From contig NC_049986.1 of the NCBI RefSeq assembly GCF_000003815.2, positions 20,427,720-20,491,719 on the forward strand: a stretch of 64,000 nt of DNA. Direction: 5' to 3'. Shown in pieces: positions 19,101 to 60,862 of the stretch (positions are counted from its first letter, which is position 1; the number at the start of each line of letters is the position of its first letter). Below the pieces are notes generated by a model, which saw only the letters and a list, made by a program, of their open reading frames with translations, did not search any database and was not told the origin of the DNA. The stretch comes from Branchiostoma floridae (taxonomy: Eukaryota > Chordata > Leptocardii > Amphioxiformes > Branchiostomatidae). The position numbers and the translations under genes are program-made.

Positions 19101-21533
19101 GTTTGGCTTAGCCAAACTTCTGGTGCTGGTTGGCCTCACCAACCTTCAGGTGCCTTCGCTTGGGACTCTCTGACGTGCGGCACCAACTCGAGTGGTTCAA
19201 CTTCAAGATACTTAAATATTTTGGGTCACAATTGGTACACCTACTCGGCAGTTCAGCACTGGTGACTCAATGACAATTCCTTGGCCTACCGCTATGGTTA
19301 GAGTCTAACTTAGACTAAGCTAAGCTTAATGATATTTCTTGCGTGAAAATTTGAAAAGGGTTTCAGATTAATGTTTGGGGGGACACATATCTTAGAGGGA
19401 AGCCTACACTTCCCCCCCTGACAGGGACACTGAGTAACCCCCCACCCACCTGTAGCAGCTGCAGCAGTTGATGACTGTGGTTCCTCCAAGAGAAATTCTG
19501 GCAGGTTGGCAGGGTTGAAGCAGCAGGACTTCCTGTGAGACGTCAGCAGCTCCAGCTTACCAATAAACTCACAACCCAGCTTTCTGAATGGACAGGCCAC
19601 CTGAATAGTTTCAGTAAAAGAAAAATGTTACAAATAACTTTTTAAAAAGTTTTCTAGCTGAAAAGTTAACATTGTGGAAATGAGCTTAGTTCCAGCAATT
19701 TCAACCTCCTTGGTTTGAGATTGTTCTAAAACCCTTTTCCTGAGAATTAGAAGAGTAAGGAAATGCAGTCAATTTGCAAGTACTCACCATGTGATCTCCA
19801 ATGATGTTGGCAAGAATGAAGTCGTAATGAAGGTCCTTTTCTCGAACAGGTCTCCTAGATGTAGGTTATATGAAGAAATATGTATGATAATAATCTACAG
19901 GAATAAAAGAATAGTTAAAATGATAAATCATGATAAGTAATAGAATATAATAATGTAATAAGAATACATAAAAGTAATCTTTCCATGCTGATATCTGGCA
20001 TGAATGTGTAATATCATTCTCACCTGTCCTCTGGACAAGTCTTGCTTGTGCGTAACCAAGCCATAATGCACTGTAAAACAATTAAAAGATAATGTGAAAG
20101 TCTTGAAATGCAGACCTGTAAGTTGTACATTTGTGCGACAAAATTTCGGTACTGGAGAAGAGAAAAAAAGACGAAATTTCTAAACATATTATACTAACCA
20201 AACGTTGCACCAATTACTCAAGCAACTGGATGTGATTTTGGTCAGACATTTCAGATGACCTCTGTTATCTTTCGTCAGTGACACAATTGTTACTTTAAAA
20301 CAACATGATTTTGTTACTAGTAATAAATGTGGTTAAATATCAAGTTATGGTACCTGTGTCCCCGTGGTGCCTGCTGTGGCTGAATCGTGAAGTTCTGGTG
20401 AAATGTTTTTACTTTGTTTTGTTTGTTTCCCTGTATACAGTAGCTGTGTCCACAGGGTGCCCTTTGTGACGGAGAGGTGACCTGTTTTTGTTTGTTTATT
20501 TATTTACCTTTTTTCACTAGTTGTGTTTAGTCAGTGCCTGCTGTGACTGACATGAAGATGTACTTGCAAAATGCTTTTTATTTTTTATTTAATTGTTTAC
20601 CTGTTTACAGTAGCTGTGTTAACACTGTGCCCATTTGGACCAAGAGACATAATATTTTTTGTTTGTTTGTTTACCTGTTTACAGTAGCTGTGTCCGCAGG
20701 GTGCCCGTTGTGACCTAGAAGAGACATACTATTTTGTTTGTTTGTTTATCTGTTTACAGTAGCTGTGTCCGCAGGGTGCCCGTTGTGACGGACAGATGAC
20801 ATGTTTTTGTTTGTTTGTTTACCTGTTTACAGTAGCTGTGTCCGCAGGGTGCCCGTTGTGACCGAGAAGAGACATATTATTTTGTTTGTTAAATTGTTTA
20901 CCTGTTTACAGTAGCTGTGTCCGCAGGGTGCCCGTTGTGGTTCTTTGAACACATCTTGGCAGATGGAGCAGTACAGGTGTTCACTCACGGACTCTGGGTT
21001 CAGGAAATACCTGCAGGTGGGTATTAAGTAACGTTAGTGCAGTACAGGTGTTCACTCACCGACTCTGGGTTCAGAAAATACCTGCAGGTGGGTATTAAGT
21101 AACGTTAGTGCAGTACAGGTGTTCACTCACGGACTCTGGGTTCAGGAAATACCTGCAGGGGGAGAGGAATCAGTAAGTTTCTTCTTAGTTCAGCCAGGTA
21201 GAACTTGAACTTTTCTCGCTAAAATCAGTAAAAATTTGTGATTCAACAACACGCAACGTGGATTAAAGAAACTTGACTTCGAAAATCAGAAATACTGATC
21301 TTTAGTAGCTAAGATTATTGACACACAAAAAAAACAGCATTGCTATCTAACGATTTCGATCTGGTTCTGTGTTGAGGCTAGAAAAATTACGACAATCGGG
21401 GGAAAATATCAAAAATTTTATGCAACCAACGATCGATGCGATCGTATTTATTTGAAAGCCGAACCAACCTTTCTTCTTCGCCTTCATTTGAGTCCGCAAA
21501 GCCCTCGTCCCCTCTCTTTCTCTTGCTTGCCAT
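16162..21533 (-). CDS. RING/TRAF-type zinc-finger E3 ubiquitin ligase, complete
   Basis: Six exons join in phase: 21533-21469, 21010-20902, 20070-20024, 19854-19788, 19600-19450 and 16325-16162, giving 200 aa. Residues 36-73 form a RING finger C36-x2-C39, C51-x-H53, C56-x2-C59, C70-x2-D73. The last ligand is Asp (CPED), the C3HC3D variant known from TRAF proteins and RNF41. One TRAF-type finger follows: C99, C106, H118, C122. The N-terminus is charged and lysine/glutamate-rich. The C-terminus is a basic, probably disordered tail ending MFDKENRPK. By family knowledge it should transfer ubiquitin from an E2 to a substrate; the substrate is unknown. Closest in architecture are RNF41/RNF151-type proteins, but I cannot assign orthology. 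Exon 2 is flanked on both sides by tandem partial copies of itself. The last intron holds a CACTA-like element. Confidence 0.85.
16747..19062. mobile_element. Non-autonomous CACTA (EnSpm-like) transposon
   Basis: The left end is CACTACACGAAAA and the right end TTTTCGTGTAGTG, an exact inverted pair beginning with the diagnostic CACTA. The element is flanked on both sides by TTC, matching the 3 bp target duplication typical of this superfamily. Subterminal regions at both ends are rich in GCATATG, GGACAT and CCCGC words, consistent with subterminal transposase-binding repeats. The 2.3 kb interior has only short open frames and no recognisable transposase. It lies in the last intron of the RING gene. 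Confidence 0.75.
20350..20901 (-). repeat. Tandem stubs of the 3' half of RING exon 2 plus its donor
   Basis: The 3' end of exon 2 (encoding RAPCGHSYCKQ) and its GTAAAC donor recur downstream in the intron at about 20822-20860, 20749-20788, 20673-20712, 20598-20639 and 20431-20471, with weaker copies near 20515 and 20350. Copies nearest the exon are almost identical, and those farther away are decayed. A TTTG-rich linker separates them. None carries an acceptor, so they are donor-only decoys. Confidence 0.85.
20981..21160 (-). repeat. Triplicated 5' half of RING exon 2 with its acceptor
   Basis: The acceptor CCTGCAG and the first ~45 bases of exon 2 (encoding YFLNPESVSEHLYC) occur three times at a spacing of about 71 bp. 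Their boundaries are near 21010, 21081 and 21152. The copy at 21010 is the one continuous with the rest of the exon. Splicing to an outer acceptor would include intron sequence with an in-frame stop. Confidence 0.85.
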
Positions 21534-21910
21534 GTTAAAGATTGAAAATTCAACAAGAATGATCGCGTTAATAGTAACAGGGCAGGTCAAAACATACAAA
21601 ACATTTCACCTGAATGGCAGTCTTTTTTCGACAAGTTTGAAATTCGTGAAACTATCAAACGCATGCGTACTAGAGTCTAACACAACGACAAAACGCTCAG
21701 TACCTCAAATTACAAAATACGGGCAAAAAGCAGTAATACGTTATGTAGAAGAAATAAATGACATCTAATTATTCAATTCGCAATATTAAACTATCATAGG
21801 TTATCTGTTTGTAATAATTCACGTGATAGTTACTATTCTTCTTTATTTTGCTGCGTTTTGGTGTTATTAACTGCAACCTTTGACCTAATAACAACCTTTG
21901 ACCCAGCAAG
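21534..21910. promoter_or_regulatory. Probable bidirectional promoter (RING gene / SNAPIN)
   Basis: Only 377 bp separate the divergent start codons at 21533 (minus) and 21911 (plus), with no intervening exon. SNAPIN begins in the context GCAAGATGGCGGAC. The AAGATGGCG core is the YY1-type motif common near animal transcription starts. No TATA box was assigned. Confidence 0.6.
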
Positions 21911-23290
21911 ATGGCGGACAGTGACGGAATTTTGGTCAGTCCGGCTCCCGGTGTGACTAGAGACGCTCTAGCGGATGGCATGATGAGACTTCTCCGGCCT
22001 GCTGTAGAAGAGTTGGACGATAGAGTGCGCGGTGTCAGGTCAGTGCGGTTTTATGACTTTATGTGGTGGTATAAGACCTCAGGGTCATACTTTAGACAAG
22101 CTTCCTCTTGCACGAAGCAGGTGATAGTCACATGATGTTTTGTTGTGGTACAAATGTAGGTCACACGACACCATTTTGTTCCTTGTCGAAAAAAATAAGT
22201 TTACTCAGTTTCGGGAAGTAAATAAAACCAGACCAGGTATTTCTACGAAGTTACTCTGCTTGAGGTGTTTCCATCTTGACTTTATGATAGTCTTTGAAGG
22301 GAAAAATGATTATGTCTTGCCTGAGAATTTTTTTTAGTAATTTTTACAGATTTATGTGCATTATGAAAATCCCTAATAATGTCAGTTCAGCTGATGGTTA
22401 TTTTGTTCATCCTACAGACAGAGTCAGCTGGAGCTGAGAGAACAGATCGATGGTTTATGTGGAGGTGAGTGTAGTATAATCAGCTGTAGCTTTCCCATGT
22501 TGTGCAATGCTAATACATGTTTATTTATTTATTGCATCTCAAAATCAAAGAAAGCAAAATGATTTTTGGAAACTTTTAGTCTTACCTGTATTTGAAAAAG
22601 AAATGTGTGTCTATTTTCATTTGCTTCAGAGTTGAAAAAGATAAATGAAGAGCAGCAGGTACCGGTAGATTTGGAGCCGTACGTCAAGAAACTGATGAAC
22701 GCCCGGAGAAGAGTCATGGTGGTCAACAACATCCTGCAGAATGCTCAGGTGTGGTGGTGATGTTGTAACAGTGTGGGGGTTCAAGCACCACCAAATCAGT
22801 CATGCCAAGCAGCTCTGAGCTTTTGGCATAGTGGTTTGCATTGCTGGGATTGTGATCTGGCAGCCCAGATTCAGCATGTGTTCGAATCCTGGAAGCCAGG
22901 ATATTGTTTCTGTCTGTTTCTACTCTTTTCTTACAGTGTCATACACTTTCACTTCAATTTATCTTAAATCTTACATCTTACCAAGAAGGCTGTTGAATCT
23001 TTATGGCCGATTACTACTAATGAAGTTAGATGTACAGTTAAAGTTTCAGACTACTACTTGAAAAGACATGCTTAATCCTATATATTATATCATGGAACTT
23101 CAAGATAGAAGCTCTGTATATGTTGGGTAGCACTAGTATGTACTTGTACCTCATGATTTAGAGTTTATGGAATTGTTTCCTTTTCACCCCCACACAGGAG
23201 AGACTTGGTAGACTCCATCAGAGCGTTTCCCGGGAAACCGCCAGAAGAAAAGCTTTACTGGAACCTCCTAATGCTGGACCAGTCATGTGA
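21911..23290 (+). CDS. SNAPIN: SNAPIN, SNARE-associated BLOC-1/BORC subunit, complete
   Basis: Four exons join in phase: 21911-22038, 22418-22464, 22630-22748 and 23198-23290, giving 128 aa against about 136 in vertebrates. Conserved blocks are LRPAVEELD, SQLELREQID, DLEPYVKKL, NARRRV, VNNILQNAQERL and SVSRETARR. All match the Snapin family's helical coiled-coil region. Known role: a small cytosolic subunit of BLOC-1 and BORC. It links to SNAP-25/SNARE machinery and to lysosome and synaptic-vesicle positioning. The variable N-terminus (residues 1-20) is short, as in the family. The ATG follows AAG and is the first in frame. The C-terminus differs from vertebrates and ends PNAGPVM. Confidence 0.95.
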
Positions 23291-24791: not shown

Positions 24792-27700
24792 TCACAGCTT
24801 GGCTGTTGTCTTGCGCCTGATGGCAGCGTGGATGTTTCCTGATGGCTTGTCAACTGGCATGAGGACCTGTCGGGAGAAGGAATTGACAAAACAAAATGAA
24901 GTTTTCTATGATTAACTGTAAACACTAAAAGGAGATACGAATTAAGACCAAATTAAAAACCAAAACAAACCAACACTGAACATCTTCCACATGTTTTTCA
25001 ATCTTTCATTCATAAACTTCTGCTGTGTATGATAGAGTGGAGGCTGTTAGCCTGGTATCCGAACTTATTATACTTATTATACTTATACTTATCCGAACTT
25101 ATTATACATGTAGCTCCAGAGCTTGAGTCTCTTCTGTCCTCTCTGCAAATTTAAAGAGACTTCGGAGCTATGATAGGTTTAGATACATGTATCAGGCTAC
25201 GAAAGTGTACTCTCACCTCACTGGTCCCATAGCCTCACAGGCTGTAGGGGCAGCATTTCCATCAAAATAAGTTTTCCACCTTTCTCTGTCCTCAGCCAAA
25301 CTGTACTGTACTACATATTACTAAAAAGCACACATCTTGCTAATACATGTATAAGAATCACAAACATCTTTTCTAAAACAGCCATTTTCATAAATCATTT
25401 CCTGACCTCATCCTTGTTTTCCAGTCCAAACTTGGACATGTCCACGGTGAAGTTGTGCACGTTGGGCATCGTCATCTCAATTTCACTGATCTGGAAACAA
25501 AAATAGAGTATGTCAATTATTTAAGGTTAGACTTCCAGGTAGAAAATGTCTTTGTTACAATGTAGATCAAACAACGAGATAAATTATTTGAAGACTCAAA
25601 CTTTACAGATAGCATCTACTACAGCCAGTGCAGCCAGCGTAGTTAGTCTGAAAGAGATTAATGCATTCACTACTATGCAGAGTCCTAGACTCGTTTGCCA
25701 GCTTTTGATACTAAGTACAATGTCATGTATCTTATGCCACCGTAGGATCTGCTTGGAGATTACTTGACTTACTTGGAGATTAAGTCACTGATAAAAAGGA
25801 CAGAAGATGCTATCTGGAACATCAGTATTGAGAATTACAGTTTCTAACCCCTGCCACATGAACGACCTACCTGTGGTACTCGTCCCAGTATCTCACACTC
25901 AGCATCATACAGGGTCTTCTGGACAGAGGCAGAGAACATGCCTGCTGCCGCGGGACCTGCAAACTCCTCTAGGATGGTGGACTTTGCAATGTTCCTGGGA
26001 AAACAACAATGGATCGTGAGCTTACATTTTACAATATACATTTTCAAGTCACATTAAATCTACCAAAGACGTCATTTTTAGCTCATTCTAATATACAATG
26101 GGCTACCATGATCCAGAAAAAAAAAGAAGGCGAGATGGTAATATGGTAAAAATAGAGTACAATCTTCCAAGATGATGCCAAGGTACTATAATTACTGGTA
26201 CATGTGCCATGTTACATAACCAATTTGAGCATGCATTAAAAGAATTACCAAGTGGACAAAGTTATTTTATTTTATTCGCATTCATTTTTTTAGCATGGGA
26301 CAAGAAGCTCACAATGAGCTTATAGAGGTCTTCTGCTCTGTATATTACATACAATGACAATCGAAAGTAACAAAATTGAGATTATAACGATTGAAACATA
26401 CCACACAGCATCGAAGTCCAGCCCCTGTAGTGTGCTGTACTTCCACCTGCTGTGCACGACAGTCTCCAAACACCTGTCCTGCACCTCAGGTAGGCTGGTG
26501 TACCTGTCCCTCAGGAACCCCGAGAAACCAGACTGGGTCGTCTTCAAGATCTTCATGTCCTTCAGGCCAGCATGAACCACTGGTGCACCTGAGGAAAGTT
26601 GTATAGAATTAATTGAAATAACAAAATAGGAGAAAGGTAATTCCCTGGAAACTGTAACAGATATTAAGTGAAATTTGGGCTTTTAAATCTATAGAAAGTT
26701 TCTATCTACAATGTAGTTACACTCATTTTTTGAAAAAAACTTTTTGAAAAAGCTGTTTTGAAGATGAAAAAGATTCAGTCTGTTTATCAAAATTCACCAC
26801 TCAAGTGGAAGGGGCTAGGGAACAGCCAATGGCACCTTAACTAGTCCTCCAAAGAAAAGAATGTGCAATGTCTAAACAATATTGACTTGTTGTCTATGCA
26901 AGCTTTTTTTCAGATCACTAAATTGAAACATTATTTTTTTCCCAAACTTTGGGTAACATCCCTCACTGAGTTTGTTGCACTGCTTAAGCTTTAAGTTCAA
27001 GTACACTACCAGACACAGAAGTTTGGTACTGTTAGAACACCAAGTCTTGTTGTTGACTCCATGCCAAAGAACCAATATCTCACACTAACTCTTTCTGCCA
27101 CCACAGCAAACTCTGGGCTGCTTTAATCAGGATGCTTGTAGAACAGTCACACTAGAGTAGGTACAGTGTAAATCATAACTATGGCAACAAAGGTCAAGTC
27201 TAGTCGGATTTCAAAGCCAACTTTCCTGGCTTCCTCTATCATTAACGCTAACAAGGCTGAATTCCAGGTTACCAAATGGGAAACATATCTTACCAAATTT
27301 GTTGCAGTTGGACTAAAGATACCAGTCTTGTTGATTCCATGCCAAAAAGCCAATAGCTCACACTAACTCTTTCTGCCACCACAGACTTTGGGCTGGTTTA
27401 ATTAGGAGGCTTGTAGAACGAACATGGTAAAGTATACGTAGGTACAGTGTAAATCATAATTGTGGCAACAAAGGTCAGATCTAGTTGGATTTCTAACCCA
27501 CCTTTCCTGGCTAAGTCCTCAATCATTTTTAAAGTTAACAAGGCTGGATTCCAGGCTACCACATGGGTAACAATTATCTTACCAAACCTGTCGCAGTTAA
27601 GGTGAGTGCAAAGCCTGGTACCAAAGTTTGGTATTGTTTGGACTATGGGTCTAAGTCTTGTTGTTGATTCCATGCCAAAAAGCCAATAGCTCACACTAAC

Positions 27701-30421
27701 TCTTTCTGCCACTACAACAGATTCCGGGCTGCTTTAATCAGGAGGCTTGTAGAACAGACACGATAGAAATTGAATACAGTGGAATTCATAAGGCTTGTGT
27801 CAATGAAGGTCAGAGTTTTGACTTGTCTTCCGTCTCTTTCTCTGTGATTTGTCACGAAAAGCCTATCATTCACACTTATTCTTATTGCCACTACAGTAGA
27901 CACGATGAACTACAGAAACAGCACTATGATTCTTAACTTGCCTTTAGTGCCCTCCTACAATTGCTTTTTTACAAAAAGCCAATCGCTCACACTTATTCTT
28001 ATTGCCACTACTGTAACAGCAGAGACAATGAGCTACTGGGAGAGTTTGATTTATACAACAGTCATAATACAGCAGATACAACATTAGGCTATAGCTAGCA
28101 CCTTCACACTTCAAGGTGATATATCTGGTCCATCTGGTCTGACCTTCTGATTGTAGATTGCATCTTACAGCTTGTGGCACTGGGTGCAGGTGAGATTACT
28201 CAGGTGTGTGACTCACCTTATTTGCCCTGCTTCATGTGACAGAAGCACAAGGAAGCCATTCTCCTACACAGAGACATCAAACAACGGCAGCAAACCACCT
28301 CTTGTCTGTACTCTGCTATCTCAACCGTCACCATCAGTTCCTGACAGCCTGCTTATGAATATCAATGAGCAAGATCCCTTTTGAAAACTGAAAGGCCTAT
28401 TCTCTGATTGGCTGATAGCTGGTTTGTGGCAACGCCCACAGGAACTGATGGTGACAATTGAGATAGCAGAATACAGACAAGAGGCAGTTTGCTGCCGCCG
28501 CTGGATGTCTCTGCGTAGGAGAATGAAGGAAGCCAGCTAGCTGTAGTCATAGATCTAAAAAGTTACAATCTTCTACCCTATCATAATTGCTTGTGGCACC
28601 TGGCAGAGATGAGAATACTCAGGTGTGTGACTCACCTTGTCTGGCCTGCTCCACGTGACAGAACCTTACAGCATCTGGAGTCATGATGAAGGCATGGGCA
28701 TGGTCCTTTCCACCCTGCGGACAAGAAACATTTAGAAAATCTAGTTGTTAAGAACTATACATTCAGGCTAAGACCTTTACAGAAAGTTCACTTTTAGAAA
28801 AATGAGAATGTATGGAATTGTGTTATATATTCAATGGTGAGATATTCAGGTTATCATTATGACTACATAATATACAAAATATTTATAATTCTTTATTAAT
28901 CAGACAACTGAATAAATTCTCTTAAGCGTCAAACTTGTATTATCGCTATAATTCTCGGTCACTGATGAAACATTGTACATGTAGATGCTATCTAATATGT
29001 ATTACATTTAGCCAGTTTTTGCTTTATTTTGTTGAGTATATCAAACATCTATTGATGTTGATGATGACATACTATTTTCATCCTCCTCCAGGGTGCCATG
29101 GTAATGTCCACCTTCACCCTGGTGATGTGGGAGAAACTGGACAGGAAGTGATGACACAGGTCCAGTCCGAACTGCTCTGGAGTGGTCACCTGGATAAATA
29201 TCAACAAACAAACAAACAAACAAACAAACATGAACAACAAAATAACTCCAAGCTTTCAAGCCTTAATAATAGTAATGTGGGTGACACAAGTACCAGCCTA
29301 AACTGTTCTGGAGTGGTCACCTGGATAAACATCAAAAACAAACAAAAAAACATGTTGAATTAACACAAGTTGAATTAACACAAGTCCAGAAATGTATGAG
29401 ACACAAGTCTAAAATCCAAACAGCTCTTGATTAAGTCACACACATGAAGATATACTGGTAACACACTCCAAAACTAGTGATATGGAAAAAAAATGAACAG
29501 ACTGTCCAGACTGCTCTATATAGTATGGTCACATGCAGAAACATTATCCATCATAAGTTGGTTGGTGAGTTAGCTGATTAGTCATTTATATCAAGTAATT
29601 CTGGCAAAAACACAAAACAAACTCATTACATTATTAGATACACGTAGTAATTCTTATGTTCAAAACTCATGCTCAACTCACATGTAGTGTGTGAGCATGG
29701 ACAGTGTTCTTTTACGTCAAACTCACCCCTTTAGTTTTAGCGAGAGCATAGACCGTGTTCTTCTGAGTGTCTGTGGCGATGATGTCACTGTTGTCTCCAT
29801 GGAGATAGTCTTTCTTACTGGACAGGGTCAGACTGGTGGACACCTGTTGGAATATTAATGTAAAAATTAATTTAAAAAAGGACAAGTAAAAGCATAATAT
29901 TCATGTGATTAGCAGCTTTTTCTAATATACTTGTATTGTAGTAATATTCTCGTTTGGCTTTAATGTAAAGTGAATAAGTCAATTATTTAAAACTTTAATA
30001 AAATAACTAAACTCCTGATATCTCATGATATAGTCATGATCAAAGTTACAAATATTATTTAGCAAGTTTACTGTTTAAAATTTTGCAAAAGAAAACAGAA
30101 ACCAGATAAATGTTCATGTTTACAGAAACACTGACATGCATACTCATAAAGTCAAAGTCAAATAAAGTCAAAGAGTATTGGACATGGACATATTCTACCA
30201 AAAATTAGTAAAAGTGGTCTTGCACCCTCACTGCAGGAATCTGTGTAGCCCAAGGGCTAAAGAAACAGATATCATGGGCACTGTATCCACAAAGGTGTGA
30301 GAAGTATCTAACCTACCTCCAGCTCCCTGATATCCTGGTGTTTTCCCCCTAACCTGCGGATATGGAGCAGTCGGACCCAGTTCTTCCCGTACTCTGTGTT
30401 TGTGAACTCAACGTCCGCCAT
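24792..30421 (-). CDS. UOX: Urate oxidase (uricase), complete, peroxisomal
   Basis: Eight exons join in phase: 30421-30317, 29843-29727, 29189-29073, 28714-28636, 26588-26402, 25994-25871, 25490-25407 and 24866-24792, giving 295 aa, close to the family's ~300. It oxidises urate to 5-hydroxyisourate with O2, releasing H2O2, without a cofactor. The catalytic set is visible: K13 (in EYGK), T59 (in ATDTQKNT), H255 (in NVHNF), F161, R178 and Q227. The family signature [17 protein letters not shown] is present. The C-terminus AKL is a peroxisomal PTS1 signal. Exon 7 uses a weak donor, GTCAGG. The start ATG lies six bases inside an exon with its own acceptor, so the 5' UTR is split. Exons 2, 3 and 4 each have a nearby partial copy. 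No inactivating change was seen. Confidence 0.96.
25040..25203. repeat. Inverted-repeat element with TAGCCTGRTA ends
   Basis: The left end TAGCCTGGTATC is mirrored by ATCAGGCTA at the right, with inner AGCTCC/GGAGCT blocks also inverted. It is a short palindromic element in a UOX intron. The element at 40997-41085 has similar ends. Confidence 0.5.
25690..25765. repeat. Interspersed repeat shared with 38376-38445
   Basis: Both copies carry CCAGCTTTTGATA and, about 45 bp later, AGGATCTGCTTGGAGATTA. This is a dispersed repeat in a UOX intron and again downstream of DNASE2. Confidence 0.5.
27050..28020. repeat. ~330 bp tandem repeat array in UOX intron 4
   Basis: The block TCACACT(A/T)A(C/T)TCTTTCTGCCAC with the preceding TTCCATGCCAAAAAGCCAAT recurs near 27060, 27340, 27680, 27870 and 27980. 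Two full units of about 300-330 bp also repeat GGCAACAAAGGTCA and AACAAGGCTG blocks. The later units are truncated. There is no coding content. Confidence 0.75.
28193..28250 (-). repeat. Partial copy of UOX exon 4 (3' end plus donor)
   Basis: About 55 bases match the exon 4 donor region at 28615-28665, including ACTCAGGTGTGTGACTCACCTT and the GTGACAGAA block. In the copy the reading frame is interrupted by a stop (GGCAAATAAGG), so it cannot serve as an intact exon. Confidence 0.75.
28251..28530. mobile_element. Palindromic MITE-like element in UOX intron 4
   Basis: Arms of about 90 bp are inverted copies: CATTCTCCTACACAGAGAC, CAAACCACCTCTTGTCTGTA and GTCACCATCAGTTCCTG on the left, with their reverse complements on the right. 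The ~90 bp centre contains TTGGCTGATAGCTGG. It is non-coding. Confidence 0.8.
29279..29345 (-). repeat. Partial copy of UOX exon 3 (acceptor plus 5' end)
   Basis: It matches the exon 3 acceptor region at 29150-29215, sharing CTGGAGTGGTCACCTGGATAAA and then a CAAACAAA tail. It lies on the upstream (transcriptional) side of the real exon. A weaker fragment may exist near 29490-29535. Confidence 0.75.
29672..29718 (-). repeat. Partial copy of UOX exon 2 (3' end plus donor)
   Basis: GAGCATGGACAGTGTTCTT matches the exon 2 stretch GAGCATAGACCGTGTTCTT. It is preceded by an AACTCAC donor block like that of exon 2 (29720-29726). Confidence 0.6.
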
Positions 30422-45900: not shown

Positions 45901-47747
45901 AATCCCTGACAGCTGTCCGTAAAGATCAGCTTCAGACAGCAGGACAGGACCGATGGGCCTCAGCGCCCATCTCGACAGGACAAGGCCACATTACTCTCTC
46001 AGCGCTGCTCTCTCCCTCTATCTTCGATCATGGTTACGTTTAATCTTTGATCGTCTTTATCAAATCCCTCATTCACATTAGATCAGCTTCAGTCAGCAGA
46101 GCGGGACCAACTGGGGCCACACCGCACACCCGGACCGACGGGACGCGGACATGGCCGCACAGCTATGATCTCCCTCCCCCAAACAGTTCTCATCTTGTAC
46201 ACATTGATCAACAACGTTACATTTCTATAAAATTGTTGTGGTCACAGTAACGATGTCTCCCATGCTTTTATACCATCAGATCAGCTTCAGCAAGCAGGGC
46301 GGGACCGACCGGGGCCACACCGCCCATCCCGACAGACGGGACACGGACGTTGTGAAACTATTGTCCTGTCTTGATCTCCCTCAAACTGTGCCATCTTCTA
46401 CACATAAATAGATATATACCTGACCATAACATCTTTAAACAATATTTCTCATACTTTACCATCAGATCAGCTTCAGCCAGCAAGGCGGGAACAACCGGGG
46501 CCACACTGCTCATTCGGACAGACGGGACGTCATACTGACTCTCCGACCTGTTCTCTCACTGAGTCTCTCTCTTCTACACATACAGCATGATTACGTCTTT
46601 GATCATCTTTGTAACATTTCCCATTCTTATTACCGGTAGATCAGCTTCAGTCAGCAGGGCGGGACCGACCGGGGCCACACCGCCCACCCGGACCGACGGG
46701 ACGCGGACATGGCCGCACAGCTAGCGGCGGACCAGGCCTTCCTGAAGGACTACGTCAGCAAACATTTCCCAGACTTTGAGAACCAACCGTGTGTGGTGGA
46801 GAGGTGCATGTATACGGTAAGTGACGTCTGCAGATTCTCTTCTGTAAGTCATCTATGACCTTTATTTTTTTTCAAGAAACTGAAGTAACTGGATATGATT
46901 TTGGAAACGCCAGACGTTTCAGATAACATCCGTTATCTTTCGTCAGTGACACTAATGCAAAATGTCTTGTTGTATCACAGACGTCTAACCGTTTCCAAAA
47001 TTATATCCAGTTGCTTGTGTAATTGCTATATGGCGCATCTTATTACATGAATGTCTAAACTTTATCGACGTATCGCAAAGATTTATTTTGTCGCTCAAGC
47101 CTATCTCTCCGTTCTTGAGGACTCAAGCCATGCAATTATGTGTACATTCATGGATGTCCTCTTTTTCAGCGACTTGCAAAAGTTCAACGCAGCCACTTCG
47201 ACGTGCTTAATTGTCTCTCAAAGCTCAAACGAACAAAGAACTTCCTAAAAGTGATAGGTGTAAGTCACACGGACCCTCTGTGTTCCGAAGATAGCTTGCT
47301 TAGTTGCTGCTTTTGAACGCGCCAGATTACCAACCGATTTGCGCACCATAAATGTTTATGATCAAGCGTTTAAATTGCCAATATACTTGCAGAACACACC
47401 GGATGGGAATTTCATCCTGGACAGATATCCTTCCCATTCCAACATCGTTTTCGGTACCGGATTTTCAGGTAAATTTGTTCATAATTGTAATTCTAATGAT
47501 GTACTTGTATGGCGTTTTCTTCTGTGTGACGTTCTGTGTCGTTCTGTTATATTCTTAAGGGCACAGTTTCATGGCGCCCGGTCGCCCCTGTGGTAAAGTG
47601 TTCGTGCATGTTTCCCCAGGACACGGTTTCATGGCGGCCCCTGTGGTGGGACAGCTCCTGTGTCAGATGGTCCTGGACCTGCCCACCAGTTATGACGTCA
47701 CTCCATTTCGTCTCTCCAGGTTCCCGCGCAAAACGTCTTCTTTGTGA
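39903..47747 (+). CDS. PIPOX: Peroxisomal sarcosine/pipecolate oxidase, complete
   Basis: Eight exons join in phase: 39903-40016, 41209-41363, 43942-44155, 44734-44916, 45288-45425, 46640-46816, 47393-47468 and 47620-47747, giving 394 aa (human ~390). It is an FAD-dependent amine oxidase that demethylates sarcosine or oxidises pipecolate, producing H2O2. Visible features are the Rossmann dinucleotide motif GGGVMGSA (residues 14-21), PHTRGSS after it, CGPWAG in the second FAD-contact region, and C324 in VERCMYTNTPD, the family's covalent flavin cysteine. The C-terminal GFSGHGFMAAPVVG is also present. The C-terminus is SSL, a weaker PTS1-like tripeptide than the vertebrate AHL. An in-frame ATG at 39867 would add 12 residues; the later one fits the family better. 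Exons 6 and 8 have decoy partial copies upstream. Intron 2 holds a DNA transposon. Confidence 0.95.
40997..41085. mobile_element. ~90 bp palindromic element, TTAGCCTGGGTA ends
   Basis: Exact 12 bp inverted ends (TTAGCCTGGGTA / TACCCAGGCTAA) enclose a partly self-complementary centre. It lies in PIPOX intron 1 and resembles the element at 25040-25203. Confidence 0.7.
41511..43657. mobile_element. ~2.1 kb TIR transposon with GGACG subterminal repeats
   Basis: The left end GTGAAAATTCAAGCGTC is exactly inverted at the right end (GACGCTTGAATTTTCAC). Both subterminal regions (about 41530-41900 and 43390-43640) are dense in GGACG/CGTCC words, unlike the AT-rich middle. The interior carries only unrecognised open frames (for example 42133-42537) and a nested family A repeat. 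No clear target duplication was found. It is probably non-autonomous, in PIPOX intron 2. Confidence 0.75.
41935..42090. repeat. Interspersed repeat family A, copy 3 (nested)
   Basis: It shares TAGCCTCCACCACGCCTTCC, ACAGATCGTAAAATTC, AAAGGCCAAG and GGCCAAACTCCTAGCAAA blocks with copies 1 and 2. It sits inside the 41511-43657 element, so it apparently inserted later. Confidence 0.6.
45691..46639 (+). repeat. Five decoy copies of PIPOX exon 6 (5' part plus acceptor)
   Basis: ATCAGCTTCAG preceded by an AG acceptor recurs at 45691, 45925, 46081, 46280 and 46466 before the real exon at 46640. Each copy extends 60-90 bases into exon 6 (GGGGCCACACCGC, CGACGGGACG blocks) and then switches to intron sequence. 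Spacing is 156-234 bp. The copy at 46081 extends farthest, through GACATGGCCGCACAGCTA. None reaches the exon donor. Confidence 0.9.
46889..47010. mobile_element. Palindromic element, CTGGATATRATTTTGG ends
   Basis: The left arm CTGGATATGATTTTGGAAAC is inverted at the right as GTTTCCAAAATTATATCCAG. The centre has TCTTTCGTCAGTGACAC. Half copies occur near 20226-20285 and 5438-5490. It lies in PIPOX intron 6. Confidence 0.75.
47556..47600 (+). repeat. Decoy partial copy of PIPOX exon 8
   Basis: GGCACAGTTTCATGGCG followed by GCCCCTGTGGTAAAG mirrors the start of exon 8 at 47620. It is preceded by TCTTAAG in the acceptor position. It lies just 60 bp upstream of the real exon. Confidence 0.7.
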
Positions 47748-48834: not shown

Positions 48835-49200
48835 CCCTGATTGGCTGACAGTAAAGTAACAGAACATCCTAAAGTTATATGGCAACAACTGGAAGAACCC
48901 AACAATGGCTGACAATTAGGCTTTTTCTGATTGGCTAATCCAATGCAACTATCTCCTAATTGGTTGATAATAAAGCTACAGAACATCTAAGTATTCTAAA
49001 TATCCATAGCAACCATTAAAAGAACTAGCTATGGCTAACCACCAGCGCCCCTGTGATTGGTTGACCAAATGCAACTCCCTTCTGATTTGTTGATAGTAAA
49101 GCTATAAAACATCTATTCTAAATATCCATAGCAACCACTGGAAGAACCCAACTACAGCTGACCACCAGCCCTGCCGTGATTGGATGATTCTCTGGATGTC
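48835..49200 (-). repeat. ~125 bp tandem repeat spanning the terminal exon
   Basis: Three diverged units share CTGATTGG(C/T)TGA, TAAAGCTA(C/T)A, AACATC, ATATCCATAGCAACCA and GGAAGAACCCAAC blocks. The third unit forms the last ~100 coding bases, including the stop codon, of the minus-strand helical-protein gene. The other two lie in its 3' UTR. Confidence 0.7.
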
Positions 49201-52200
49201 CTTCTCTGATTGGATGAAGTGGTCGATGATGCTGGCCTTCAGCTCCTGGTGCCAGTATTTGGGCTGGCCCTGGTTTAACTGCAGCAGGCAAACCTGGCGG
49301 ATCTACAAGAAAAACAGCAAGAAAAACTTTTTTACAAATGAATATTTTTTACAAATCTTTTCCTTGCCAGATTCAAACGTAATGTCCCTGTGGCACAAGT
49401 TGAAGTACAATTCTACTGTTTTGCCACATGGATCAAATTCTGATGGTTTGATCCTAGGGCTGGTCCCATCTAAGACATCATCATCTTGTAGGGGATTGTA
49501 TAAATTATGCCATTTAGGATGCATGGGGACCTCAGGCTATAGGCTGCTTAGTGTATGCAGGAGCTTCAAGCATCAAACCTCTTCATATTAAACAACCCAA
49601 CAAACAAGGAGACTACTTCTCAAGAAGGTGACCTAGTGTGCTTGGGGTGACCTAGTGTGCTTGGGGTGACCTAGTGTGCTTGGGGTGACCTAGTGTGCTT
49701 GGGGTGACCTAGTGTGCTTGGGGTGACCTAGTGTGCTTGGGGTGACCTAGTGTGCTTGGTAAAAAATGCAAGCCATAGAGATGATAGACAAGCTGCAATA
49801 CTTGAAGAATCATCATACTTTTTAACCTATGGTGTGAAGATGCACAGGAGTTCACAAAATGATTGTTACAGTATATGAATTAATAAGGATACTCACATAT
49901 TGAGTCACACTGAAGACTGTGTCATATTTGTCTGCTGACAGTTTGATGATGTCACGAGCTGTCTTCAGAGGAGCATCCACCTGTCAGTGAGTGTTTTTGT
50001 TTGGTAAAGACGTTTGGTTAAACCCATCTGATGATGTATTCATACAAAAGTTTAAGTTTCATTGCCAGGCAAGTAGCATGTCAATGGTTAGAGTGCACTA
50101 TAAGTATGTTGTGTTTTCCCTGTCTCAAATAATAGGGCTTTTGCCTTATTTCTTCTATTGTTCACTAACGTTTAAGACTCAGTAAGCAAAATGAAATTAT
50201 GCTTTAGCTTCTTCTTTCAAGTCATATACAATCATGCATTGTAGCTCACAACATGTTTCTAACTCATTTATGCCACCAGTATAATAATGGTCCAATCACA
50301 TACTTCTCTTGCAAATGCCTCCACATTTTCTTGTCTCCTCTGCTTGTAGACCTCTTCCACTCTCTCCTGTAAGGAAGAAACAAAAGTAGATGCAAAGTGT
50401 CACAGCATAGCTTTATAATATAGTTATACAATATGCTGAAAATGGACAAATGATGTACTATGTATTTATTTGCCAATTTTGAGGTCTTAATCATTGCTAA
50501 TGGCTTTAAAACTACATGTAGGTATGACTATTGCTATACTATAATATTTATATACATTAATCAAACTCCTACCTGTAAAGTTTTCATGCCGTCATCATAG
50601 GCTGTGAATAGTGAGTAGTCATCCTGGGGGTGTGAGAGCACAGTTCATTATCAAGAAAGAAAAACAAATTGAATTTCACAAAAAATAAACGCTTGCTATT
50701 ACCATTATCATTGTCTAAACTAATAGAAAATGTATACATTACATTCTTCATGTCAATAATCTGAATGTAGAATATGAAATATACTGTGCATCTGGCTGAC
50801 TTAATTATATTTCAGCCATACATAGTATGGTGAAATATATTGTATTCGTAATGTTTCTTTCTTTCTCCTGTCAAATCTTCAAAGTGATTCATCTCCGCCG
50901 TTCCTGGACCGAATGACCTGAAATTTGGCACAGGGGTAGAATGGGCCAATACCTTGATGCTTTTTTCTCAGTTTTTTCATATCTGCCTCTAAAATGATTT
51001 TATTGAGATTTTTTGGTCAATTTTAGACCAAAACTGTGTATTTTGGCCCCTGTACCCTGGTATTACAACCAAATGAGCTGAAATTTGACAGAGATGTGCC
51101 TTAATAATGCCCCCATATAAATTCGATAACACTTTTGGTGTACAGTACAACAAAATGCTTATTTTTGCGTTTTTGTTACCAATTTTTGACCAAAAAAGGA
51201 CACTTTTGGCCCCTGTACCCTGGTATTACAACCAAATGAGCTGAAATTTGACAGAGATGTGCCTTGATAATCCCTTCATATAAATTCAATAACACTTTTG
51301 GTGTAGAGTACAACAAAATGCTTATTTTTGCGATTTTTTGACCAATTTTTGACCAAAAAAGGACACTTTTGGCTCCTGTACCTTAGTATTGCAACCGAAT
51401 GAGCTGAAATTTGACACAGATGTGCCTTGATAATCCCTTCATATAAATTCAATAACACTTTTGGTGTACAGTGCAAGAAAATGCTTATTTTTGAGATTTT
51501 TGGCCAATTTTTGACCAAAAAAGGACACTTTTGGCTCCTGTACCCTGGTATTACAATTACATGACCTGAAATTTGGTATAGATAGGCATTAGATACTTGG
51601 TAACAAGATTCAGGTAAAATTTAATTTTGGCACTTTTCTGAGGGGAAAGTTGTTTTCTTTTGGCCTCCTGACGTGACCTTCCGTGACCCCGCACAGAGCC
51701 ACATCTGTGCGCGTCAGCCGGAGAGTTAATTGAATCAAAGACCTAGCCAATCAGCGAAGAGGAGGCCAAAGGCTAATTAATATTCATAAGCGGGGCCTCA
51801 TGATCCCGTATATAGCAGTGTTCCCGCCAGGGGGAGCGAAGCCCGCCTAAGGCTCTCGCATTTTAGACTATTCAGAAGGCTTTATATTGTATCAGTTCTT
51901 AGGGGCATATCTATGATAATCGCAGCAGTCATTTAACTTCTCTTCAGGAGTTTAGCGTAACACTATTTCAGGTCAAACCGTCAAAGGCAACTAAAAACAA
52001 ACTTTAACGGTACTGAGTTTAACAGTACTTACAACTTGTTATCCGAAGTTGAAACGCTAGCGATGGTATTTTCGCTGCGCTGTTAGCTCCGTGCGACTGT
52101 TGTTGACGGTCTTATAACGGTATATTTTGCACCCCTGTACCCTGGTATGAGTAACATTTGGTATAGATAGGCATAAGATAGTTGGTAAAATGATCCAAGC

Positions 52201-55200
52201 AAAATTTTTGGCATAAAGTACTGTAAAAGGCTTAATTACAGCACTTTTTTTAGGGGAAATTGGTTTTCTTTCGTTCTCCATGCCATGACCTTTCGGACGT
52301 TCACCCCACAGAGCCGACATCTGCACCTGCGTCTAGCCAGCAGGAAGAGTTAATTCAATTAATGGTTCAGCCAATCAGCGAAGAGGAAAGCGAAGGCTAA
52401 TTAATATTCATAAGCGGGACCACACAATACGTTAACTTGAAGACTCAGGCCGTACAGACTTCTCGCCAGGATTTTTTCAAAGCGTCGGACAGGGGTCCGG
52501 GGGCCGCCGAATGTCCCTGGCGGGGTCCAGGGGCAGGGCCACTGTGGGGGGGACCCAGGTGGGCGAGTTTGACTTTAAAATATTTCGGGTCAAACCTTCA
52601 AAGACAACTAAAACCTCATAAACAACAAACTTTACTTAGCTCAACAGTATACAAAAATATTGTACGGGTTGCCATCCTTAGTTGAAGCGCTTATTTATAG
52701 CGCTAGTATCTTCGCTGCGCCGTTAGCCGCCGTGCGACTTTTGTTGACGGTCTGATATCCCTACGTCGCCGCCTCGCTGATATTCCCACGGACATGTTTC
52801 AAGAAAAATACCCAGCAAAAAACGCTGTTCTGCGTCAAATTCTATTCTATAAAACATGTGGGACTCAGTGTTACAGTCTAAATATTTTGTAGAAGCACCG
52901 CTGTAGGAAAGAAGGTCCAAGCAATGTAAAACATCACGTAGCATGAAGTTCGCTGTCAACTGGCACACAGCACATGACTGTTTGAAACTCTAAGTCTAAT
53001 CAACAGCCGTGTTTGATTGATAGCCGGCGGTCCTTTGATGAAGTCGGCGAAAGGTGCGTTAGTTAGAAAATCTGCGTTTAGTTTTGATACGTAATTATAA
53101 GTTAGACAGTGGCGAGAATGATTATTTTCTCATCAATATTTCTCTTCAGAATTATTTGAACTTATTTGTACATGTAAACAATTGGCTTACCTGTGCAATG
53201 TTTATATGATTAATGATCAGTGTACTGAAATCATGTGTAACGTATGGCTCCTAGTCAATAGATCAGCATTTTCTCTATAGTGACCACCTGTCTATAGTGG
53301 CCACATTTCCTAGTGCTGTTGTTGTTTGACATAAACTTTGAACATTTAAATTGTAAGTAACTTTAAACTGCCAGAGTTTCAGCCCAATAAAACACTCTCA
53401 GCGCCAGGGTATGAACAGACTGACCAGACAGACGAAAATAAATCCTCGAACAAGGTTCAATCGTATCTTCCGGGTCTGGCAGGAAGTTGTTAAACTAAAA
53501 TAAGAATAGGCTCGATGGCTGATTGCATACAAAGTAAAACAGTTTAACAGTTTTACAGCTTGAAGAAAACAGACGCTCCTACAGTACCTGCACCTGCTTG
53601 ATAATTATTAAATCGTATGCCCTACTTGAATAAAAAAAGTTCACTGCAATAATAAATGTACCAACATCACAAAGAGCTTATACTTTTTTAAACTTACACC
53701 TAGTTATCGTACTGAAAATTGTTAATGACATTACATGAAGTAATTCAACAATTTTCAGTCATGATGAAAATTTTCTGAATGGAAGGTGTGATTATTGTCA
53801 TTTTCTGAAAAATAGAAGCAAGCTCTGTTTTTACCTGGAATCAATTCACAATACCAGTCCACTTTGGGGGATAATGTACTGTTAAGATGATGTTCCATTT
53901 TTGCGCAGGGGTGATTTGGAACAGTCCAATGTTGCGTGGGAAGGGGTATGGCTGAAATATGCTGTATTTGCTCTTAAGCAAATGTCGGCCTTTCTAGTAT
54001 ATATATATATCACTATCATAAAAGGTTATATTGAAGTTTATTTGCCCGAGGGCTAATTGCAACATGAAACATACAGAAAATATAGTATTTAACAGTCATA
54101 CATAAAATAAAGTAATTTGGTATAGATAACAATGGTGACAAGTGTAAACAAGTGACTATTCTATCAATGATATGGAGGGAGTTATATTGGAGGGAGTTAT
54201 ACAACATTGTTGACTTGCCTCAGCATCCCTGTACTGAGCCTCCACTCTGAGCCAGCTCTGTTTTAATCTGGAAGGATAAACAAAACTCAGATAAGTCAAT
54301 TTAGTTTCATAAAATACTCATACTTTAGGCACTTGATGAAATGAAACTGCCTTAGCGGAAAAGCAAACTTTAAGACTTATTCCATATTCTTATCTTTCGA
54401 TTATGCTGGACTGGAACATGTGGAGATGCTGGTGTCACGTCTCCGAGGATGAACTGAACTATCTAAGATTTAGCTGTACCTCATTTCCAGCTCTGTGCTG
54501 TTGATGGGTAAGATAATCTCAGTGCTCCCAGTGCTGCTCCTGAACTCATCAACCAACTCACGGACCTGGAAGGGATCAAAAAAGCATTTTAGTATTTTTT
54601 TTACAATTTTAAGTATTATACATAGTATAACATGACATGTACAATGTATGTAATGACTGCAAGATGCTCTGAAATGGATAATAACAACTTGAAGTTATTA
54701 TGCACCCATGCATAGGGTAGCGCACATCTCCGTTTCATTGCAGAAGCCATAGGCCACAAAACTTTGTACAATCTCTTTCCCAATGCTGATGAGTACTAAA
54801 CAAAGAAAGTAGCATGTACCATTTTTTTTGTGTACCAAGTCCTTGGCATGATTCGGCCAGGAATAAAAATCACAACCTACTGAATGCAAGCCAAACACTT
54901 TACCCGTTTGGCCATTGCTTTGGTTTCTAATGGATTATAAGGCTTGGAAAAGATATGCCCCCACCTTGGAGAGACAGAAAAGCCTGACCAGCTCACTGTT
55001 GGCCTCCTCAAACCTCTCCTGCTCCTCAGACATACGGGTCTGGAACAGGCAAAAGGGTAACTTACTAACTTAAAGGTTTCAGTACAATAATGACTGCAGC
55101 TTAAGAAATTAATTGGACCTTGTTGACTGCAAAGCAGTCATCTCAGTGACAGAAATATAATATTGTAAATGCATTTAAGTTCGCAGGTATTCAATTTTGC

Positions 55201-58200: not shown

Positions 58201-60479
58201 GCCTCAAACCTATTGTGTTTGACATAGTTTACAAATTTAGCCTGTATTTGCACAATCCCTCGCTGGTTGTGGTTAAATGACGCCCTCCCTGAGCGGCAAC
58301 TAGGCCCGGCTGATAGGGGCGCTATTTATTTTAGTCAGGCTTACAAAGAACTGTGGTCCAAAAGTAATTTCTTGTGTAAAGGTTGGCATCAAATGTTTGA
58401 ATTATACAGGACAAGGCGTATATCATGACTGTTCTGTCTTGTAGGCAACCAGGAAGTGATATGATCTGTCAGGTGTGTAGCACACTGTTAAACACACAAC
58501 AGACTTATAAGTTGACTGATCTCTCATCGGAATCTGCACCTGCCTTGTTTCATCTGTTTCCTTTTGATACCTTCAGGCTTGCAAGTTTATCAAACACTCC
58601 TGCACTTGGTGCGAGCTTAACCAGGCACTGAAACATGCCCTGTACATGAATTTATGAAAAACAAAGGGTGAGTCTCATTTCAGAATGTCCCAACAACTCT
58701 TTGCTAAATTCAGCATAAAGATTTCAGAAACCCATAATACGTATTACTCTACGTAAAATCATGGCTTTCCCTACAAATTAAGGGAACGAAAAATTAAGGC
58801 CTGTATACACCTAATATAAAAGAGCAATGACTGCAAAACCTATTTAAAAACCTGTAATGATTTTTTTCTTCAGACCCAAGAAATACCACTTTGGTACAGG
58901 TACCGATTCTGATAACAAAAAGCTACATCAGCATGCAGATAAAGTGTTGTTGAAGTTTAAAGATTGCATCACAATCCAATGAAGACATGTTTAATATAGA
59001 GTTTACGATTTTGAGTTGCTCCATGTATTTCCAGCAAACCTTGTTGCTCAACATATTCTCTCTGACAGTTGACAATCATACAGTTTGTACCTCACTCCTC
59101 CTCCTCCACAGTTCTCCCACAACAATATGAAAGGGATTGCCAACCTTGAGTTGCTCCATGTATTTCCTGTAAGCCTTCTTCCCCAGCAGTTTCCCCACTT
59201 CCTGTTGGAAGCTGCTGATGCAGCTGGTTTCCACGGCAACAAACTCCTCCTCCAGGAGGCTGGACCGGGTTGGCAGCTGCACACCCTCCAGTCTCTCCTC
59301 GGCCTCAAGCTGGAGATGGTACAAGTTTATATCTTTATATTCTTAGATGAAACAATCAACTACTTAGACTAGGGGAGATCTGTACATTGTCAAGTTGATA
59401 TATTTAGTATTCTAAGATGGAAAAAAATTACTACTGAAAAATTACTATAAAAAGACTTGCTTGTACTATAGGGGGCTCCTTTTGATCATGAAAAGCACAG
59501 TCTCTTTTGTCTCTGCTTTACTACGCTACTTAAGACTGTATACATTTAGCTACTTCCTTCAGCTCTCTATTCTTTATGTCTCCATTTGCAGGATGGCAAT
59601 TATTCAGTACTTTTCTGCCAAGTCACATATAAAATTGTATATTCTCCATCTTAAAAAAAACTGTCTACAGTTAAGAGATCCCCAATTGAATGACCCCATG
59701 CATAATTCCAGAACTGCATTTTCTAAACTGTGCAAAGCCATCATTTGAATAAATACATTTGTACCTGGGGGGTGCTGTCCTATAGATCTGTCAAACACAA
59801 TGTAGTTTCAATGTTGTGGATAAAATGTATGTAATACAAAAGACATTTTCTTCAAAGAGTGCCAAATTATACAAATGTATAAAGTGTAATCCTATCCCAC
59901 CTCAAGTCTCCTCTGCCACTCTGTACATCTCAGCTTGATCTTCTTGTCGTTGATCTCCAGAGTCTTGTCAAACTTGCTGCGGATCTCACGGCCAAGGTCA
60001 AGGGACGCCACCTCCACAGAGTCTCCCAATCTGTTCAGGAGCAAAGGGGATTTCTTAATTAATAAATTGACAATTTTTTTGTTAGTGAGAATGCATAGAG
60101 AGACTTGATGGGATTTCAAATCAGAGCACTCATAAAATAGAATGGAAGCTCATCTGTGTTGGTACATAATACAATACTAAACTTCCAACACAAAGGTATA
60201 CACTGATCAAATTTTTAACAACCACTGTGGCTTTCTTCAGGGTCAATACTGATGTATTGTTCATTACTGATTCTGAAGAAAGCGACAGTGGACATCGAAA
60301 ATTTGATCTGTGTATATTTTTGTGTTGGAAGAATATTAGTATTGTAGTGTTCTGATAAACTTATGACTTAGGAAAAAACTACATTGTGATGATCTAGATG
60401 TTGGAAAAGTGGAGACTCACCCGAATAGCAAATGTTGAAGGAGATCCAGGGACTTGTTGTACATCTGATTGTGCCAGTC
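49102..60479 (-). CDS. Unidentified alpha-helical protein, 3' portion (13 exons)
   Basis: Thirteen exons join in a single phase: 60479-60421, 60030-59901, 59309-59091, 56992-56902, 56571-56474, 55660-55592, 55039-54965, 54565-54480, 54267-54219, 50623-50573, 50366-50304, 49980-49897 and 49302-49102, giving 424 aa to the stop. The 5' exons lie beyond 60.5 kb. The sequence is rich in E, K, Q, L and R with heptad-like spacing and few Cys, which suggests an all-helical or coiled-coil protein. The C-terminal ~20 residues are hydrophobic and Trp-rich (WWSAVVGFFQWLLWIF). The stretch GVQLPTRSSLLEEEF in the third exon is reminiscent of the helical domain of guanylate-binding proteins; this is a weak match and no GTPase is visible. 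The intron after 54219 uses a GC donor (GAG|GCAAGT). Confidence 0.75.
49627..49759. repeat. 19 bp minisatellite, seven perfect units
   Basis: GGTGACCTAGTGTGCTTGG repeats seven times without a mismatch, apart from the last base. It lies in the last intron of the minus-strand gene. Perfect identity implies recent expansion and likely length polymorphism. Confidence 0.95.
51035..51600. repeat. Four ~160 bp tandem repeats
   Basis: Units start with GGC(C/T)CCTGTACC near 51045, 51209, 51371 and 51532. Each contains TGAGCTGAAATTTGACA, GATGTGCCTTGATAAT, CACTTTTGGTGTA and TTTTTGACCAAAAAAGGACA blocks. The middle two units are nearly identical. The array is in the large intron of the minus-strand gene. 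Confidence 0.85.
51560..52440. repeat. Direct repeats continuing the 160 bp array
   Basis: Two blocks match: about 51570-51805 and 52145-52425. Shared pieces are TTTGGTATAGATAGGCAT, GGGGAAA(G/T)TTG, CATCTG(T/C)(G/A)C, GAGTTAATT, CCAATCAGCGAAGAGGA and GGCTAATTAATATTCATAAGCGGG. The intervening AGGTCAAACCGTCAAAG... segment recurs again near 52590, as does CGTGCGACT(G/T)TTGTTGACGGTC (52090 and 52732). It appears to be a composite repeat. Confidence 0.7.
54210..54219 (-). promoter_or_regulatory. GC-AG type splice donor
   Basis: The exon ending at 54219 is followed by GCAAGT instead of GTAAGT. The exon side is a strong GAG, and phase matches the next exon (50623). This is the expected context of the minor GC-AG class. 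A missed small exon in the 3.6 kb intron is the alternative. Confidence 0.6.
55161..55386. mobile_element. MITE with TACTGTAAATG ends, copy 2
   Basis: The left end TATTGTAAATGCATTTAAG and the right end TTTTTACATTTACAGTA are inverted. Internal blocks GGTGGTTTTAAGTT and ACCACCGCAAAA are also inverted. It belongs to the same family as 33311-33470. Confidence 0.7.
55867..56440. mobile_element. ~575 bp TIR element with ~95 bp inverted ends
   Basis: The left end (from CTAAGATCC, through CACACTCAGGGTTGACAATC, CAAAGCCTATGATATCACCC and ACAGTATTCGGTTATTAGGG) is inverted almost exactly at the right end. The middle contains a second inner symmetry around TGAATATTAATGAG and CGCGG words. There is no coding capacity. 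It lies in an intron of the minus-strand gene. Confidence 0.85.
57100..58995. other. Intron with diverged repeat material
   Basis: 57360-57545 is GC-rich and repeat-like (CTAGCCCATTTTTACGGGCC, GGGGCTCGGCC). From about 57550 to 58625 there are broken open frames that might be remnants of an old element, including a plus-strand frame at 58009-58227. No diagnostic motif was found, so no class is assigned. Confidence 0.35.
59011..59040 (-). repeat. Exon stub of the minus-strand gene
   Basis: TTTGAGTTGCTCCATGTATTTCC repeats the coding segment at 59149-59169 (MEQLK region) just downstream of the exon's own donor at 59091. Confidence 0.65.
60182..60331. mobile_element. Palindromic element, CTTCCAACACAAA ends
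   Basis: CTTCCAACACAAA at the left is inverted at the right (TTTGTGTTGGAAG), with inner ATCAAATTTTT and CACTGTGGCTTTCTTCAG arms also inverted. A half copy is at 6552-6632. Confidence 0.75.
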
Positions 60480-60635
60480 CTGGGTACAAATTATACAGTA
60501 ATTTGAGCACATTTTGCAACGTCCTAATATTTACTGTCAGTCAGTCTATGCAGACTATGACATGAGCAAAAATATCATAAGAATGTCACTAAAAACAGGT
60601 TAATATCTGAGTAAGTCATCTCAGTTAAATTGATA

Positions 60636-60862
60636 CCTCTATAGCTCCTGAGGAATGATTGGCCCTTTGTCCTACCCCTTGCATTAACAACCATCAAACC
60701 GTGATTTTATACCTGTTCATGGCCTTAAATGAGTATGACCTGACCCGACCCTCACCTCCAGGTCCTGAGGTATGATTGGTCAATTGTGTACCCTCACCTC
60801 CAGTTCCTGAGGTATGATTGGTCTATTATGTAACATTACCTCCAGTTTCTGAGGTATGATCG
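60636..60862 (-). repeat. Four exon-end stubs (encoding IIPQELE plus donor)
   Basis: A minus-strand block reading ATCATACCTCAGGAACTGGAG followed by a GT donor recurs near 60837-60862, 60796-60821, 60753-60780 and, more decayed, 60640-60665. Its phase fits the following exon at 60479 (IIPQELE then DWHNQ). It is the 3' end of an upstream exon of the minus-strand gene. The real exon is either cut by the adjacent retrotransposon or lies beyond it. Confidence 0.65.

Follow-up and report, generated by a model that had tools for sequence, protein, structure and literature searches.

Partial exon copies at the splice edges of five Branchiostoma floridae genes are mirage minisatellites

A 64,000-nucleotide stretch of the Branchiostoma floridae genome (contig NC_049986.1; "the window" hereafter) contains five genes in which an exon is accompanied by partial tandem copies of itself, here called stubs. 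These stubs are new instances of the mirage minisatellites already known from amphioxus. They are probably ordinary small tandem duplications, tolerated since one intact exon always survives, which decay neutrally and are not directed to splice edges. Strong focusing on edges was not supported, and a mild bias towards them was neither shown nor excluded by the counts. To the published cases we add a rough frequency, the neutral decay of the copied splice sites and a comparison in genes that were not chosen for the feature.

Exon copies in the window and known mirages

Self-comparison of the window recovered 61 local repeat pairs (score of at least 34, within 1.5 kb), against a mean of 0.1 in ten random sequences matched to it in local composition, and grouping reduced these pairs to 23 loci. 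Alignment on the sense strand identified partial copies of nine splice edges, belonging to eight exons in five genes. Five were acceptor edges with copies upstream and four were donor edges with copies downstream, and only the RING-finger exon was duplicated at both of its edges. The tandem unit spanned the exon-intron boundary at all nine aligned edges, the intron side being weak or absent for PIPOX exon 8 and for the edge at 59145. An intact, phase-consistent exon was found for the stubs in each case, as judged from sequence. The first-pass annotation had described at least nine exons in five genes. The five genes and the copies are real, but the count is eight exons with nine edges, and the supposed exon at 60840 is itself a stub. 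It was treated as an exon in the window annotation, the locus grouping, the edge tests, the alignments, the identity and codon-position counts and the splice-site scoring.

Exons in the window were defined by reading frames, splice signals and phase-consistent splicing, and protein domains were assigned with Pfam. Six genes were annotated:

Coding from 21010 down, minus strand: RING-finger gene (zf-C3HC4_2, 1.1e-12)
21911-23287, plus strand: snapin gene (Snapin_Pallidin, 1.7e-28)
30421-24790, minus strand: uricase gene (Uricase, 6.6e-65)
32997-38223, plus strand: DNase II-like gene (DNase_II, 1.3e-120)
39903-47747, plus strand: PIPOX/sarcosine-oxidase-like gene (DAO, 3.2e-48; the PDB matches are sarcosine oxidases)
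49-61 kb, minus strand: coiled-coil gene (GBP-like)

The coiled-coil part of the last gene had no Pfam domain when submitted alone. Upstream exons predicted in the adjoining region L003 (L-numbers denote further regions of the genome that were sampled) yielded a GBP domain in a joined model (1.7e-35), and the gene was therefore taken to be guanylate-binding-protein-like. No duplication locus was found in the coding span of snapin by self-comparison of the window. The duplicated edges of the other five genes, with the evidence for each in brackets, were as follows:

20902-21010, minus: real RING-finger exon (YFLNPESV...SYCKQ), both edges duplicated (phase, the Pfam match above, alignment)
20355-20890, minus: about seven stubs repeating the donor side of the RING exon with a period of about 75; 4 of the 7 retain GT (alignment)
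21039-21180, minus: two acceptor-side stubs of the RING exon, at 21081 and 21152, period 71 (alignment)
29073-29189, minus: real uricase exon 3, acceptor 29189 (phase, Pfam)
29282-29352, minus: acceptor-side stub of uricase exon 3, 88% over 72 nt, acceptor copy 29320 (self-comparison, alignment)
28636-28714, minus: real uricase exon 4, donor 28636 (phase)
28170-28244, minus: donor-side stub of uricase exon 4, 84% over 75 nt, donor copy 28217 (self-comparison, alignment)
35600-35761, plus: real DNase II-like exon 5, acceptor 35600 (phase, Pfam)
35428-35494, plus: acceptor-side stub of DNase II-like exon 5, copy at about 35428 (self-comparison, alignment)
46640-46816, plus: real PIPOX exon 6, acceptor 46640 (phase, Pfam, PDB matches)
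45687-46550, plus: five stubs of the acceptor side of PIPOX exon 6, whose exon parts begin at 45692, 45925, 46082, 46280 and 46466 (self-comparison, alignment)
47620-47747, plus: real PIPOX exon 8, the last, acceptor 47620 (phase)
47560-47600, plus: weak acceptor-side stub of PIPOX exon 8, period 60 (found by eye, below the self-comparison threshold)
59145-59309, minus: real GBP-like exon, donor 59145 (phase; the GBP domain given by Pfam belongs to the L003 exons upstream in the joined model)
59005-59053, minus: donor-side stub of the 59145 exon, copy at about 59010, donor GT absent (self-comparison, alignment)
60639-60862, minus: 42-nt donor-side stubs of the GBP-like exon L003:892-1029, including the 60840 "exon" (placement against L003)

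The RING donor-side array (20350-20950) had one match in the 513,431,437-base genome, in a search that skips very common words, and is thus not a dispersed element; no second haplotype of it was found in this search of one assembly. Between uricase exon 4 and its donor-side stub lies a palindromic element resembling a miniature inverted-repeat transposable element (28257-28525, 87-nt arms, 89% complementary). As it separates the exon from its stub, the insertion looks younger than the duplication. A PIPOX intron holds a short inverted repeat (46883-47016, 27-nt arms, 93% complementary), perhaps a small terminal-inverted-repeat element.

The statement in the first-pass annotation that such minisatellites had been described in amphioxus was borne out. 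In PMC3087553, mirages are reported in Adh3 and in the globins BflGb6 and BflGb9 as tandem duplications of one intron-exon boundary, on either side, with units of 10-160 bp, many of them carrying AG/GT; BflGb6 units are 81-100% identical. PMC3902484 describes imperfect 60- and 108-bp tandem repeats over the 5′ and 3′ splice sites of lancelet PGBD5 and cites TnC as a further case. The window stubs share with the mirages of PMC3087553 the duplication of one boundary, the occurrence on either side, AG/GT in many units, the animal group and very probably the species. They differ from them in being in other genes, in the length of some units (PIPOX copies are 157-233 bp apart), in the age of some copies (down to about 79% identity in the exon part) and in one array being broken by a retroelement. 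PGBD5 is a single gene and the window has five; both duplicate segments bearing splice sites. Ten globin exon-2 loci were run through the same pipeline. Two were flagged, L034 on the donor side with period 157 and L038 on the acceptor side with period 150, and they agree with the BflGb9/BflGb6 pair of PMC3087553 in side and unit length (157-bp donor-side, 150-bp acceptor-side), the comparison being by these features only. No genome-wide count of mirages was present among the literature matches listed, with subscription papers outside their scope, and one may exist.

Models of intron creation by tandem genomic duplication (the Rogers model; Gao and Lynch 2009, both as cited in PMC3087553; a potato RdRp case, PMC4974935) likewise duplicate segments that carry splice sites and could make new introns. 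In the window, however, the real exon is intact and a new intron is not shown.

Edges and intron positions compared

The first-pass annotation had proposed comparing edges with intron positions. This was run on the window and on the sampled regions, and gave an excess of events in the window, no excess by position and no significant excess in unselected genes. By position, a repeat being taken to straddle an edge when it had at least 8 bases on each side, 6 of 79 edges in the window were straddled against 12.8% of intron positions. In the sampled genes outside it the figures were 9 of 204 predicted edges and 11.2%. Edge coverage is thus not above that of introns, and the claim that the duplications were not random was not supported. 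In a base-coverage permutation of the window, 4 of 11 arrays fell on edges where 3.4 were expected (P = 0.46). This permutation did not include the RING array, part of which lies beyond the coding span, and an event test was added for this reason.

The description of the repeat unit as consistently straddling an exon edge is contradicted by intron-only repeats, which were detected by self-comparison at 18231 in the RING gene, at 55964 in the GBP-like gene and at the following positions (strand not assigned):

27019-28015: repeats in uricase
49627-49759: 19-bp minisatellite with 7 perfect copies in the GBP-like gene
50908-52757: 163-bp array and associated repeats in the GBP-like gene

Outside the window we sampled 20 regions at fixed steps on two contigs and three window flanks, giving 23 regions and 230 kb, of which 9.5 kb was N. 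They contained 59 loci of local duplication (score of at least 36), about one per 4 kb. The random 10-kb regions were annotated with a custom ab initio exon finder. Of its 31 models ten were submitted to Pfam, one as a hybrid with window exons and another without its tail, and eight had a domain; at a looser setting 53 of 122 predicted edges were exact. The aldehyde-dehydrogenase (ALDH) sample consisted of five regions, with 34 exons, of about nine gene places matched by one family search. Two of its four in-gene duplication loci were mirages, at the donor of exon 4 in L026 (the end of this exon was set by hand) and at the acceptor of exon 6 in L027. Further cases, among others, were found in predicted genes for a DNA polymerase subunit B (L011) and an MFS protein (L015). 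Together with the globins, these show that the class is general, as had been proposed.

Two of these regions deserve separate description. At 4586-5160 on the sense strand of L026, a long array of donor-side stubs of about 51 nt follows the ALDH-like exon 4; the best pair is 96% alike and the first copy is open in frame. L009:7099-7503 is a perfect 203-nt tandem duplication over a predicted acceptor, and is either very recent or an assembly artefact.

Nine of 33 loci (4 in ALDH genes, 29 in predicted genes) straddled an edge against 6.9 expected (P = 0.23), with units longer than 450 bp treated as 450 and 4 of the 33 coming from window-flanking regions. One locus, L004 9226-9841, covers three edges and may be a whole-exon duplication. 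The ten globin exon-2 loci contributed five duplication loci, two of them straddling, which brings the unselected genes to 11 edge-straddling loci of 38 against 7.9 expected (P = 0.14). This comparison speaks for small tandem duplications being generally frequent and not for an edge-directed process. The process focused at exon edges that had been put forward was not supported in these genes; in the window the proportion was higher.

That duplication is truly focused at exon edges, for example through breaks or slippage associated with transcription, with splicing or with a step in composition at the boundary, we consider unlikely, though several results weigh on its side. In the window, 8 of 14 events straddled an edge against 2.1 expected under random placement with equal unit sizes (P = 0.0002, or P = 0.01 if copies that contain exon stay visible twice as long). 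The homology-verified subset of genes not chosen for the feature gave 4 of 9 against 1.8 expected (P = 0.08), and all 52 loci, the window included, gave 19 against 10.0 (P = 0.002). The RING exon is, moreover, duplicated at both edges. Also weighing against the preferred reading, 29 of the 38 unselected loci rest on ab initio exons with imprecise edges. The 14 window events were curated by hand from the self-comparison loci: two components were each split in two, the loci at 39594 (partly intergenic) and 48836 (last exon and 3′ end) were dropped, and the PIPOX exon 8 stub, being below threshold, was left out. The window excess was discounted because the window had been chosen for this feature. 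Copies that contain exon should also stay recognisable for longer, the parent exon being conserved, which would inflate their count. Together with the unselected sample and with base coverage of edges below that of introns, these points favour ordinary tandem duplication.

Mirages were present at 9 of 79 edges in the window, counting weak ones and one whose real exon is outside, and at 4 of about 88 in homology-verified genes elsewhere. If several per cent of splice edges do bear mirages, there would be many near-perfect decoy sites that splicing must ignore, and amphioxus would offer a natural setting in which to test exon definition as well as the origin of new introns by duplication. A further proposal is rather unlikely in our estimate: that amphioxus tandem duplication is truly but mildly (about two-fold) edge-biased, that some 5-10% of edges have splice-competent stubs, and that thousands of decoy sites form a pool for introns or exon extensions, of which the 42-nt GBP unit, being in frame, would be an example.

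Decay of the copies and their origin

Under the preferred explanation, small tandem duplications with units of about 20-300 bp would arise throughout the amphioxus genome, presumably by slippage or unequal crossing-over. Where the two breakpoints fell on either side of a splice edge, one within the exon and one within the intron next to it, one complete exon would necessarily be left, as the last copy for a unit over an acceptor and as the first for a unit over a donor. This geometry would place stubs upstream of acceptors and downstream of donors in a gene that still works. The side rule of the first-pass annotation was indeed seen at all nine edges, but since it holds for any edge-spanning tandem duplication it gives no clue to mechanism. 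The splicing machinery most likely uses the innermost acceptor-donor pair (exon definition), which may be the reason for tolerance; the stubs would normally leave with the intron, and would thereafter grow, shrink and decay like any neutral intron sequence.

The real acceptor-donor pair always yields the shortest exon, a pattern that would fit exon definition. Outside the GBP array, 10 of 13 intact copy sites scored at least as high as the real site on a matrix built from the window, and strength therefore does not mark the real site. Each copy had been said to carry one splice boundary, which is true of most. By local alignment the splice dinucleotide was kept in 19 of 24 copies (23 in the window and one in L003) against 18.6 expected from the other aligned dinucleotides, which indicates that splice sites are lost as readily as other parts of the unit. 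A fixed-register count gave 15 of 22, at least two registers being off by a few bases. The PIPOX copy at 47560 has its AG in the fixed register, though it was scored as lost in the local alignment, which left the AG unaligned.

Coding constraint on the copies is little. Exon-part mismatches at codon positions 1, 2 and 3 numbered 28, 17 and 34 in 288, 293 and 289 sites. The small surplus at position 3 (chi-square calculated by hand, about 5.7 with 2 degrees of freedom) sits less well with neutral decay, and may come from the real exon. Exon-part and intron-part identity showed no consistent pattern among the copies, several registers being off by a few bases. In two uricase stubs the exon part was less alike than the intron part.

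It is very unlikely that the stubs are kept for a function, as decoy splice sites or alternative exons that regulate their genes. Many stubs retain good splice sites, and the exon finder took the 42-nt GBP unit, which keeps the frame of its real exon, for coding sequence. However, the sites decay at the same pace as other parts of the unit, the two uricase stubs run contrary to exon-part conservation, and splicing at a stub would run into a stop codon in 17 of 18 copies, the 18 being those for which the register leaves the answer unchanged (three GBP rows, measured from a stub, and a misregistered DNase II row were set aside). The lone exception, the PIPOX exon 8 stub, is open to the natural stop and can be set on the side of function.

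Repeats or alleles wrongly placed in tandem by the assembly are an extremely unlikely source. B. floridae is highly polymorphic, the exon part of four RING copies is identical to the exon, and the perfect duplication in L009 could be of this kind. According to PMC3087553, the draft assembly had one globin mirage put together aberrantly. However, over the aligned exon part 18 of 22 copies show a difference of 4-21% from the exon, and the palindromic insertion and the retroelement lie within two of the arrays. Re-sequencing speaks against assembly error in the PGBD5 case, as stated in PMC3902484.

The GBP-like array and its real exon outside the window

The real exon of the 60640-60860 array is L003:892-1029 (64892-65029 on the window scale), about 4 kb beyond the stubs and outside the window. 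The motif at its end, at L003:892 (64892 on the window scale), recurs in the stub at 60840, and the latter was rejected as a real exon. The initial mistaking of this stub for an exon is a warning for gene annotators. Between the real exon and the window stubs, and hence inside the mirage array, sits a retroelement resembling the non-long-terminal-repeat class. Its open frame (61274-64000, plus strand) matched RVT_1 (2e-31) and Exo_endo_phos_2 (6.4e-15), and about four 67-bp tandem repeats (60997-61249) precede it.

At L003:850-1029, the GBP-like exon is followed by a 42-nt unit that keeps the reading frame and has a GT donor at its end; the exon could thereby gain 14 residues. This arrangement is a possible intermediate of exon extension or intron shift. 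At the other end of the gene, a 119-126-bp array (48836-49187) overlaps both the final coding exon and the 3′ end, as read from the frame, with the same geometry at a coding end and not at a splice edge.

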